Positions 22,183-25,646 of a stretch of 64,000 nt of DNA are shown here, piece by piece (position 1 is the first letter of the stretch; each line of letters begins with the position of its first letter). The notes beneath the pieces were generated by a model. That model saw nothing but the letters and a program-made list of their open reading frames with translations, did not search any database and was not told the origin of the DNA. The position numbers were made by a program, and so were the translations under genes. This DNA comes from Rhodobacteraceae bacterium D3-12 (GTDB lineage: Bacteria > Pseudomonadota > Alphaproteobacteria > Rhodobacterales > Rhodobacteraceae), in NCBI GenBank assembly GCA_025916135.1, contig CP104793.1, forward strand, positions 3,695,001-3,759,000, given 5' to 3'.

Positions 22183-23778
22183 ATGGCTCCCAAAGTTCTC
22201 GTATCCGACAAACTTTCCGAAACCGCCGTCCAGATCTTCCGCGATCGCGGCATCGACGTTGATTTCGAACCCACCCTTGGCAAGGACAAAGACAAGCTCG
22301 CCGAGGTGATCGGCCAATACGACGGCCTCGCCATCCGCTCCGCCACCAAGGTGACCGAGAAGATCCTCGCCAATGCCGACAACCTCAAGGTCATCGCCCG
22401 CGCCGGGATCGGCACCGACAATATCGACAAGGACGCCGCCTCGAAAAAGGGCGTGATCGTCATGAACACACCCTTCGGCAACATGATCACCACCGCCGAA
22501 CACGCCATCGCAATGATGTTCGCCGTCGCCCGCCAAATCCCCGAGGCATCGGCCTCCACCCATGCGGGCAAATGGGAAAAGTCCAAATTTATGGGTGTTG
22601 AGCTGACCAATAAAACCCTCGGCGTGATCGGCGCGGGCAACATCGGTGGCATCGTCTGTGACCGCGCCCGTGGCCTCAAGATGAAAGTCGCCGCCTATGA
22701 CCCCTTCCTGTCCGAGGAAAAGGCCGCGAAGATGGGCGTCGAAAAGGTCGAGCTTGATGACCTTCTGGCGCGCGCCGATTTCATCACCCTGCACGTGCCC
22801 TTCACCGAGCAGACCAACAACATCCTCAGCCGCGAAAACCTCGCCAAAACCAAACCCGGCGTGCGTATCATCAACTGCGCCCGTGGCGGTCTGGTCGACG
22901 AAGAGGCGCTGGCCGATATGCTGAAATCCGGCCATGTCGCTGGCGCGGCCTTCGATGTGTTCTCGGTTGAACCCGCCACCGAAAACCCGCTCTTCGGCCT
23001 GCCCAATGTGGTCTGCACACCCCACCTTGGCGCGGCAACAACCGAAGCACAGGAAAACGTCGCCCTGCAAGTGGCCGAGCAGATGTCGAACTACCTGCTC
23101 ACCGGCGCCGTTGAAAACGCGCTCAACATGCCATCGGTCACTGCGGAAGAGGCCAAGGTTATGGGCCCGTGGATCAAACTCGCCGGGCACCTCGGCACTT
23201 TCATTGGCCAGCTGACCGACGAACCGATCAAGGCGATCAACATCCTCTATGATGGCGTCGCCTCGACCATGAACCTCGACGCGCTCAACTGCGCGGGCGT
23301 GGCGGGCATCATGAAAACCGCCAACCCGGATGTGAACATGGTCTCCGCGCCAGTGATCGCCAAAGAACGCGGCGTGAAAATCTCCACCACGAGCCAGGAC
23401 AAATCCGGCGCGTTTGAGGGGTATATCAAGATCACCGTCGTCACGGATCAACGCGAACGCTCCATCGGCGGCACCGTGTTCTCCGATGGCAAACCCCGCT
23501 TTATCCAGATCAAAGGCATCAACATCGACGCCGAAGTGGGCCAGCACATGCTCTATACCACCAACGACGACATGCCCGGCATCATCGGCACGCTGGGCAA
23601 GACGATGGGCGAAAACGGCGTCAACATCGCCAACTTCACGCTCGGGCGCAATCACGCGGGCGGCGATGCGATCGCGCTGCTCTATGTCGATGCGCGGGTT
23701 CCGGACGATGTCCTCGACAAGCTCAAGGCCACCGGCATGTTCCAACAGGTCCAGCCGCTGGAATTCGACATCGCCTGA
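22183..23778 (+). CDS. serA: SerA, D-3-phosphoglycerate dehydrogenase
   Basis: First enzyme of serine synthesis; NAD-dependent oxidation of 3-phosphoglycerate. 531 residues, the long form. A substrate-binding domain and NAD domain are followed by an intervening domain (about 320-450) and a C-terminal ACT domain (about 455-531, MLYTTNDDMPGIIGTLGKTM). The Rossmann motif is LGVIGAGNIGG, and the catalytic region shows RIINCARGGLVDEEAL and CTPHLGAATTEAQENV. The ACT domain suggests feedback by serine. Start with AAAGGA upstream. Confidence 0.96.
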   Translation: MAPKVLVSDKLSETAVQIFRDRGIDVDFEPTLGKDKDKLAEVIGQYDGLAIRSATKVTEKILANADNLKVIARAGIGTDNIDKDAASKKGVIVMNTPFGNMITTAEHAIAMMFAVARQIPEASASTHAGKWEKSKFMGVELTNKTLGVIGAGNIGGIVCDRARGLKMKVAAYDPFLSEEKAAKMGVEKVELDDLLARADFITLHVPFTEQTNNILSRENLAKTKPGVRIINCARGGLVDEEALADMLKSGHVAGAAFDVFSVEPATENPLFGLPNVVCTPHLGAATTEAQENVALQVAEQMSNYLLTGAVENALNMPSVTAEEAKVMGPWIKLAGHLGTFIGQLTDEPIKAINILYDGVASTMNLDALNCAGVAGIMKTANPDVNMVSAPVIAKERGVKISTTSQDKSGAFEGYIKITVVTDQRERSIGGTVFSDGKPRFIQIKGINIDAEVGQHMLYTTNDDMPGIIGTLGKTMGENGVNIANFTLGRNHAGGDAIALLYVDARVPDDVLDKLKATGMFQQVQPLEFDIA

Positions 23779-23803
23779 CACCGCGTTCACCGCAAAACCA
23801 CCC

Positions 23804-23834
23804 AACGCTGCCCCCTACCACCGGGGCGGCGTTT
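23804..23834 (+). terminator. serA terminator, interrupted by an insertion
   Basis: Left arm AACGCTGCCCC (23804-23814) pairs with GGGGCGGCGTT (23823-23833), with an eight-base loop and one T-G pair. The expected T-run is missing: after GTTT the sequence changes to CGAGTTG. The lost tail, GTTTTTATTTC, follows the second copy of the right arm at 24838-24860. Confidence 0.7.
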
Positions 23835-24028
23835 CGAGTTGTAGGACTCGGGCGGGAGGAAACTGTCGCCCGATTTCCGTGGGAGTACCCGTAAGGTGCG
23901 TTGGTCGGCAATGCAGACCGAGCTGCTGTTCACCCCACTTGAACCTACCTCGGCTTTCGATAGCATCATCGTATATCGGCGGGTCGCAATCTCTGTCGGT
24001 TTCAACCTAGGCTGATAGGAACTGATAG

Positions 24029-24538
24029 ATGGCCGGAATATTGAACATGTCCACTAAAGCGGCTTTAGCGGTATCGTTCTTATTTGCAGGGATCGCGCCT
24101 GCGAAGGCCGAACCGTTCAACAACCATCAGATCTGGAATTTTGCATGCAATCTGAGTAACTTGAAACGAGATGGCTATTCCCCCGATAAGGAAGAGTTGG
24201 CCCTAGACATAGTATGGAATCGGGATGCGAACCTCGCGCGGAGTTTGACACCATCAGGAAATGACAAGGGGCTGAGAGTGCTGAACGGCTTCACCGACAC
24301 TACTCAGAACACGGTCCACTTCCTGATGTCGCCAGCAACAGCCAAATTCACCGGTGAGGACACAAAGAACGGCCGTTATGGTGGATGGGTAGAAGCTTTC
24401 GGCCCAACGATAATCTCTATTCGCTCAGATGGAAGCGCAGCGATGACGAGACACGACATCATTTACGGCGGAATAAAAGCATTCAGTCATGAAGGAACGT
24501 GCAAGATCAGCGGAAAATCATTGACGTCCGATCAGTAG
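24029..24538 (+). CDS. Orphan secreted protein in the insertion
   Basis: 169 residues (or 163 from the Met at 24047) with a signal peptide: STKAALAVSFLFAGIAPAKA, cleavage after AKA. The mature protein has two cysteines (FACNLSNL and HEGTCKISG) that may pair, and no motif I recognise. The base composition is near 48% GC, well below the neighbouring genes. It lies alone in the DNA that interrupts the serA terminator. Probably horizontally acquired; function unknown. Confidence 0.65.
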   Translation: MAGILNMSTKAALAVSFLFAGIAPAKAEPFNNHQIWNFACNLSNLKRDGYSPDKEELALDIVWNRDANLARSLTPSGNDKGLRVLNGFTDTTQNTVHFLMSPATAKFTGEDTKNGRYGGWVEAFGPTIISIRSDGSAAMTRHDIIYGGIKAFSHEGTCKISGKSLTSDQ

Positions 24539-24699
24539 AACGCCCAGTCAACAAAACCCTGAATAAGACAATCTGGGCCGTGCTTCCGGACGCAGGTAGA
24601 CATTCGTTGACTGCACGGCATCGGCAAAACGGCTACAGGCAGTTGTTCGGCAGTTCCTTTTTCGGGTTCCTCGTATTCACTCTCGGAAGTGTGCTTGCT

Positions 24700-24721
24700 G
24701 CGGGAAGTTCGAACTTCCCGC
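24700..24721. repeat. Perfect 22-base palindrome in the insertion
   Basis: GCGGGAAGTTCGAACTTCCCGC, with no spacer. It lies downstream of the orphan gene in the insertion. It could be a dimeric protein-binding site or part of the mechanism of insertion. Confidence 0.75.
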
Positions 24722-24908
24722 CAGTTCGCCCCTGATGGCGACAAACTCAGGTAGTTTCTGGGCGCATAAAAAAGCCTACCATCCTCTCGGTCAGCAGGCA
24801 GATAGGCCACGTGCCCTACGGTGCGGAATGGCTCCTGCCACCGGGGCGGCGTTTTTATTTCGCGCGGCCCCGCTTCCCTCGGCCCCGCCAATCCGCTACT
24901 CCACCGGT

Positions 24909-25646
24909 ATGAGCGAACCGATCTACGCCATCGGCGATATCCACGGCCAGCACGAGATGTTGCTCGACGCCCTCACCCGGATCGAGGCCGACGGCGGCAC
25001 CGCCGCCCCCGTTGTCTTCCTCGGCGATCTGGTTGATCGCGGCCCCGACAGCCGCGCCGTGATCGACACGCTGCTCACCGGCATCGACCAAGGGCGCGAC
25101 TGGACGGTGCTGCGCGGCAATCATGACCAGCTCTTTCTCGACTACCTCACAAGCGGGCAAACCACCTCGCCGCTGATCCGCTCGGCCCGCCCGTGGTTTG
25201 ACAAAGCCCTCGGCGGCAGCGCGACATTGGCCTCCTACGGCGTCGACATGTCCCTCACCGGACCCGAGTTGCTCGCCGCCGCCCGCGCCGCTGTCCCCGA
25301 AGCACACCGCACCTTCCTCGCCAGCCTGCCGTTCCATCATACGGTCGGCCCGCTGCTCTTTGTCCACGCAGGCATCCGCCCCGGTGTCGCCTTGGCCGCG
25401 CAATCCAATGACGATCTGATCTGGATTCGCGAGCCCTTCCTGTCGCACTCCGACCCCTTCGACCACCTCGTCGTCCACGGCCATACCGCCGTGGAAATGC
25501 CGCGCCACTACGGCAACCGCATCAACCTCGATAGCGGCGCTGGCTGGGGCCGCCCGCTCACCGCCGCCGTGATCACCCCGCCCCGCGCTTGGCCCTTACC
25601 GACACTGGCCGCATCCCGCTCCTTCCTTGACGCATACGGGCCCTGA
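24909..25646 (+). CDS. Serine/threonine-type metallophosphatase
   Basis: A 245-residue calcineurin-like phosphoesterase of the PrpA/ApaH-like phosphatase group. The metal motifs are complete: YAIGDIHGQHEML, VFLGDLVDRGPDSR and VLRGNHDQLF, with the later histidines in FVHAGIRPGV and VVHGHTAVEMP. It may dephosphorylate phosphoproteins or diadenosine tetraphosphate. The start at 24909 (ATGAGCGAACC) is the first Met before the fold. It lies just past the insertion in the serA terminator. Confidence 0.88.
   Translation: MSEPIYAIGDIHGQHEMLLDALTRIEADGGTAAPVVFLGDLVDRGPDSRAVIDTLLTGIDQGRDWTVLRGNHDQLFLDYLTSGQTTSPLIRSARPWFDKALGGSATLASYGVDMSLTGPELLAAARAAVPEAHRTFLASLPFHHTVGPLLFVHAGIRPGVALAAQSNDDLIWIREPFLSHSDPFDHLVVHGHTAVEMPRHYGNRINLDSGAGWGRPLTAAVITPPRAWPLPTLAASRSFLDAYGP

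Follow-up and report, generated by a model that had tools for sequence, protein, structure and literature searches.

The region studied here lies in a 64,000-nucleotide stretch of the genome of Rhodobacteraceae bacterium D3-12 (CP104793.1, positions 3,695,001 to 3,759,000; hereafter the window) and consists of an insert of about 1 kb located directly behind serA. The serA gene, encoding D-3-phosphoglycerate dehydrogenase, occupies positions 22183-23778 of the forward strand (Pfam domains 2-Hacid_dh_C, PGDH_inter and ACT) and is followed by the 5' arm of its intrinsic terminator, AACGCTGCCCC, at 23804-23814. The 3' arm of this terminator together with the T-tract is displaced to 24843-24860, ahead of the gene for a calcineurin-like phosphoesterase (24909-25646, forward strand), which was recognized by the Pfam domain Metallophos and by synteny as the usual gene 3' of serA. 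A preliminary description of the region, made from the sequence alone, had reported a 17-bp direct repeat at the borders of the insert. Exact copies of CCACCGGGGCGGCGTTT are indeed present at 23818-23834 and 24838-24854, 1020 bp apart. In the whole 4.5-Mb genome the exact motif occurs twice in the forward and never in the reverse orientation, i.e. there is no third copy, and the reversed pattern used as a control gave 0 and 0. The match around both 17-mers can be extended to 23 of 26 nt. The low G+C content of the insert (0.50-0.54 vs 0.60-0.69 outside, in 500-base windows) was reproduced, as was the perfect 22-nt palindrome at 24700-24721, the longest in the whole window. The longest open reading frame (ORF) wholly inside the insert is the passenger gene of 169 amino acids (aa), found at 24047-24538 on the forward strand with an alternative start at 24029. 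In keeping with the secreted orphan protein described before, the product is small, has a signal-peptide-like start (judged by eye) and gave no match in Pfam, NCBIfam or PHROGs. The reported lack of a transposase also holds, since no similarity was detected between the insert and the transposases of the family described below.

A blastn comparison of the insert with plasmids yielded a single 44-bp match, on a Sulfitobacter plasmid, spanning the palindrome; phages searched with the insert DNA gave no match. The palindrome pattern was found at four loci in genome contigs, belonging to Paracoccus denitrificans, a Sedimentitalea metagenome-assembled genome (MAG), an alphaproteobacterial MAG and Novosphingobium, the last of which (L067) was discarded on visual inspection, being a separate hairpin that lacks the surrounding module. 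Comparison of the loci revealed a conserved right end of approximately 150 bp and, at two loci, also a conserved left end. The ends of L068 and L065 carry inverted repeats beginning GGAGCCATTCCG, with 9-bp duplications outside. L068, from P. denitrificans DSM 413, measures 2803 bp and comprises inverted repeats, an ORF of 848 aa and a perfect 9-bp duplication. The end pattern was matched in 6 of 388 genomes of the host's taxonomic family.

Profiles of seven left and five right ends, prepared without the window, recognized both borders of the insert. The left-end profile matched positions 23832-23880 (model positions 8-56, E=1.8e-11) and the right-end profile positions 24688-24835 (model positions 1-150, E=3e-30), so both ends of the window's insert correspond to the terminal sequences of elements from other genera, Paracoccus included. 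The conserved right end (24688-24835, minus strand) contains the palindrome and a complete inverted repeat at 24807-24835, and is immediately abutted by TGCCACCGG (24836-24844, forward strand), the right copy of a 9-bp target duplication. The left copy, TACCACCGG, lies at 23816-23824 on the forward strand. It is followed, in register, by the outer ten bases of the left inverted repeat, now GGCGGCGTTT (23825-23834, forward strand), identical to the host terminator arm, and then by the remaining conserved left end (23835-23880, forward strand), the left repeat being intact from its 11th base on. Both ends bear inward-facing hairpins: CGGGCG..CGCCCG at 23849-23872 in the left one and, in the right one, a degenerate inward terminator on the minus strand at 24774-24799 with its T-run at 24768-24773. 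In L068 the T-run of the right-end hairpin reads towards the transposase start. An apparent second, inverted right end beside the palindrome (profile hit 2.5e-5) was rejected, as it was caused by the palindrome itself and 502 of 1000 shuffled sequences scored as high. With inverted repeats around a passenger, no transposase and a target site duplication, the insert resembles the mobile insertion cassettes, known from MIC231 of Bacillus cereus and the qnrD mic (PMC3913671, PMC3281130). It differs from these in that its ends are those of another transposase family, which is apparently unnamed, its target is a terminator loop and its left tip appears to have been replaced by host sequence.

The outer ten bases of the left repeat deserve a closer description. 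In L068, L114, L065 and L109 the corresponding bases are GGAGCCATTC; of three further left ends one is identical to this sequence and two are off by one or two bases. The ten bases found in the window are instead those of the host that follow the right copy of the duplication, and from position 23835 on the window agrees with the family again (CGAGTTGTAGGAC, as in L114). The terminator of serA in G295, the only other member of the genus in the data, retains a stem TGCCCC...CACCGGGGCAGCG with the same kind of stem and arm; therefore the arm is host sequence. Seven bases from the end of the duplication and the ten replaced bases together make up the 17-mer. The mechanism first considered possible, site-specific capture, gives way to inverted repeats with a 9-bp target duplication and a left tip that now reads as the host arm, with no recombination over a 17-bp core. 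In folding calculations the present left junction formed the full serA stem (-21.5 kcal/mol), close to the joined flanks representing the empty site (-21.4 kcal/mol, an 11-bp stem followed by TTTATTT). When the left junction was given the canonical tip, the serA terminator stem was gone (-12.3 kcal/mol), and the right junction adopted a different fold from which this stem was absent (-18.4 kcal/mol). The left tip, reading as the host arm, would thus restore the serA terminator. The intact empty site predicted by the insertion model is AACGCTGCCCCCTACCACCGGGGCGGCGTTTTTATTT.

We consider it very probable that a mobile insertion cassette was moved in trans into the loop of the serA terminator with a 9-bp target duplication and that its left tip was later rewritten from the host. 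The insertion into the serA terminator postulated in the preliminary description is upheld by the transposon ends and by the joined flanks forming the 11-bp terminator stem. A passenger lying between two transposon ends, with no transposase gene, would have been mobilized in trans: the transposase, a large protein resembling IS1 in its zinc-ribbon features, would have come from a full relative. After a 9-bp staggered cut in the terminator loop the cassette would have been joined, TACCACCGG duplicated and the serA terminator split. At a later time the host GGCGGCGTTT would have taken the place of the left repeat's outer 10 bases without a change in length, most likely by template switching or gene conversion with the 9-bp duplication as anchor. 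The outcome would be the restored serA hairpin, the 17-bp repeat and the loss of the left tip, and because of this loss the cassette is probably immobile now. Directly visible in the sequence are the two ends and their register, the duplications of the relatives and the hairpins at the targets, whereas the movement in trans, the order of events, copying as opposed to mutation and the effects on mobility and termination are inferred. Such a course of events suggests a route by which a host may regain a terminator while keeping the insert.

The rewritten tip most likely arose by copying, with mutations under selection as a possible alternative. This alternative, in which the same insertion was followed by single mutations of the four differing tip bases under selection for the serA terminator, is plausible but clearly the less probable of the two. 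In its favour, pairing to the 5' arm is restored by each of the changes at tip positions 3, 5 and 7, and the fourth change supplies a T behind the stem. However, all four are identical to the host sequence that borders the other duplication copy on its right, and they form one block that ends where the match to the family resumes. Since one event explains the whole four-change block, copying is the simpler explanation.

The scans for inverted repeats and short duplications had been made blind to the target structure. When the flanks of the first nine elements were joined, they suggested hairpins whose loop holds the duplication. A hairpin score was defined after these nine sites and then also run on six sites of unseen empty form. 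Ten of the 15 sites, five of the six new ones among them, scored at or above the 99th percentile of a control set of 20300 random positions in the hosts. A hairpin with a T-tract centred on the duplication, by thresholds chosen after the sites were seen, was present at 12 of the 15 sites vs 209 of 14500 random positions (1.4 %) or, outside ORFs of 150 aa or more, 190 of 11287 (1.7 %). No site passed when the centre was displaced by 12 or 16 nt in either direction (0/15 at each of the four displacements). The best hairpin in the 120-nt site had its centre within 1.5 nt of the centre of the duplication, again in 12 of 15 cases. The P. aeruginosa plasmid element was excluded from the hairpin tests. 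The idea of the preliminary description that the terminator is the target applies to most of the members examined, with terminator-like hairpins centred on the duplication at 12 of the 15 joined sites. Mechanically called ORFs of 90 aa or more span the joined site in 11 of 15 cases, so an intergenic position is not claimed for all sites. The family could also insert anywhere, the terminators being merely the places where insertions survive, as intergenic insertions are better tolerated than intragenic ones. Survival does not explain why the duplication is centred on the loop, and both the position of the hairpin centres and the failure of the displaced ones make this explanation improbable.

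Sixteen two-ended elements with a duplication, the window included, were collected; 14 contain the transposase or a piece of it and two (the window and L109) do not. The first element scan covered eight loci, with paired ends in four, and elements of G259 and G348 were added from larger regions. A later scan of 18 regions gave seven clear paired ends; the weak pairs of L131 and L139 were dropped, eight regions (L124, L127, L130, L132-L136) had none, and L138 was without a transposase hit. Additional weak pairs seen in L100 and L137 were likewise dropped, L066, L103, L110 and L113 were not counted because they had one end or no duplication, and L087, sharing ends and flanks with L065, was counted once. 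The inverted repeats vary by subgroup, starting GGAGCC, TGACGC, TGGCGC, TGGCTC, CGACGC, CCAGCC or CAAGCC. Twelve elements have a duplication of 9 bp, with one mismatch in the case of the window; three have 10 bp and a single one has 8 bp. This range is partly built in because ten elements came from scans demanding 5-10 bp or 8-10 bp. Only the five elements found through their ends first test the length, and these have duplications of 9 bp (L068, L065 and L114), 10 bp (L109) and 8 bp (L111). A true target duplication of 17-19 bp, with an element that arrived with a truncated left end, would need no later event, and the scans were blind to duplications above 10 bp. Nevertheless, this possibility is judged quite unlikely given the 8-10 bp seen in the five ends-first elements. 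It also requires the coincidence of a truncation equal to the bases added, and transposases in general require the outer tip. Recombination of a 17-bp attB in the terminator with attP by an integrase since lost would account for a 17-bp repeat at a terminator (23/26 nt with flanks), but can practically be dismissed, since both ends are transposon ends found elsewhere with inverted repeats and short duplications and the 9-bp duplication exactly abuts the right inverted repeat. The insert has no integrase gene, its longest ORF being the 169-aa passenger with no Pfam match.

The proteins encoded by the family are 578-848 aa long and the transposase-bearing elements span about 1.9-5.8 kb. Transposase homologues were present in 16 of 394 genomes of the host's taxonomic family, and the transposase profile (E up to 1e-10) matched 4 of 385 genomes of the class; a search of viral contigs gave nothing. 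Elements surround homologues that are 38-49 % identical as well as more distant homologues located on plasmids of R. phaseoli and P. aeruginosa. For the 848-aa protein of L068, Pfam, NCBIfam and PHROGs all lacked a match, and a comparison with PDB returned a single hit at E=0.37. A further PDB search returned none. The two compact plasmid members matched the NCBIfam model transpos_IS1 at 6.8e-9 and 8e-6, below the cut-off; the best score with the IS1 family model was 35.9 bits vs a cut-off of 100, which falls short of a whole IS1 transposase. Weak matches to a zinc ribbon with helix-turn-helix were obtained in NCBIfam for two of the five members scanned, and three members of 836-848 aa had no NCBIfam hit. 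In the alignments cysteines are conserved, and one aspartate and one glutamate (D310 and E612 in L068) are invariant; these two acids are putatively catalytic. At the second acidic position the two plasmid proteins have D and the seven others aligned have E, a variation unusual for a DDE enzyme if the residue is catalytic. On the P. aeruginosa plasmid CP136985 the element (L099, 4660-6669) is 2.0 kb long and has a 9-bp duplication and inverted repeats that match throughout the 18 bases covered by the scan. The encoded protein bears the annotation hypothetical, and resistance genes are located a few kb away.

On balance, and by a narrow measure, we favour the view that an undescribed family with a large zinc-ribbon transposase recognizes the shape of intrinsic terminators (as a cruciform or a paused transcription complex) and not their sequence, duplicates its target within the loop and ferries passengers between species, and that hosts can repair the broken terminators by copying the arm over the tip. 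If true, terminator-loop DNA transposons would be the DNA counterpart of group IIC introns, the structure-guided choice of target would be directly testable, and a safe-harbour insertion tool could be envisaged.

A number of observations weigh against the interpretation put forward here. The copies of the window's duplication mismatch at one of nine bases, and the strain's own genome (G000) has no transposase match, so that no source acting in trans is known there now. No strain with an empty site or an unreplaced tip was found in the data, and for this reason the tip replacement is inferred. The scores of L068, L111, L114, L077 and L100 lie below the 99th control percentile, L065, L114 and L100 fail the test for a hairpin with T-tract, apart from its thresholds having been set with the sites in view, and L114, L077 and L100 fail the hairpin-centre measure. 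Ten of the 15 elements other than the window come from the length-restricted scans, to which longer duplications are invisible. Finally, the catalytic residues are only putative and the single-sequence model of the transposase was useless (pLDDT 34).

Two of the five members scanned weakly resemble the IS1 family (NCBIfam transpos_IS1, IS1_IS1595_Zn) in the zinc ribbon and helix-turn-helix mentioned above. IS1 itself generates duplications of about 9 bp and has a transposase of about 230 aa; the present family differs in its large proteins, in the size of its elements and in hits that stay below the curated cut-off. An association with the stem-loops of intrinsic terminators, which serve as targets, is also described for group IIC introns (PMC7923331). 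Unlike the introns as described there, the family consists of DNA with inverted repeats and a duplication, placed in the loop, and an Rfam search of positions 23700-25000 gave no match up to E=1, so no group II intron RNA structure was recognized. IS1397, ISKpn1 and IS621 are insertion sequences (IS) that target REP palindromic extragenic units, as stated in the excerpt of PMC1525189. In contrast to these elements, which choose a repeated sequence, the terminators hit by the present family share a shape while their sequences look unrelated by eye. Among the matches listed in a search of the open PMC literature, with ISfinder and subscription papers outside its scope, there was no terminator-loop-targeting transposon family, and the family is apparently unnamed.

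The regions behind serA were compared among relatives, as the preliminary description had suggested. Among 29 serA loci fetched with the downstream gene, 16 contain both genes, and in 12 of these the gap between serA and the phosphoesterase gene is 52-153 bp; the 1.1-kb gap of the window is therefore probably the derived state. An empty site in a close relative was not found in the data, G295 being rearranged behind serA. The remaining four two-gene loci (L010, L012, L021 and L024, from further genera) have gaps of 792-1274 bp filled with a different sequence, as judged by eye. In G295 (C1 342091-372863) the rearrangement breakpoint lies directly after serA, which is on the minus strand, and the phosphatase gene is 28.5 kb off. 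A cassette remnant in G295 was rejected, as the end profiles were no better than chance (best E 0.87). A weak similarity of the DNA ahead of the G295 phosphatase gene, equalled by 13 of 300 shuffles and, over its last 80 nt, by 27 of 2000, was not used; it may represent shared host sequence.

The passenger protein, for which a search for homologues had been suggested, has one in G279 (53 % identical), the only clear match besides its own genome among 295 genomes of the host's taxonomic family, in which G084 gave a weak match (E=0.0019). Weak partial matches were obtained in 2 of 337 genomes of the class, and nothing was found in genome contigs, plasmids or viral contigs. The single-sequence model of the protein was useless (pLDDT 36). 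Since the G279 homologue is flanked by genes resembling, by eye, those of a branched-chain transporter, the passenger of the window may have been captured from a chromosome. The G279 gene (L003 1492-2061) overlaps the start of the permease gene (ATGA) in an operon-like manner.

The cargo varies among the elements, the labels given here being motif readings by eye and not tool results. L109 (6082-15167, G123), with the same ends, a 10-bp duplication and no similarity to the family transposases, is a large cassette of the same transposon family; it is 9.1 kb long and carries three Hint-like proteins and a 222-aa protein with a signal-peptide-like start. The family transposon L111 (2228-6715, G259) encodes a DUF262-like protein and a small protein, which may form a defence pair, and the cargo of L112 includes an ORF of up to 499 aa.
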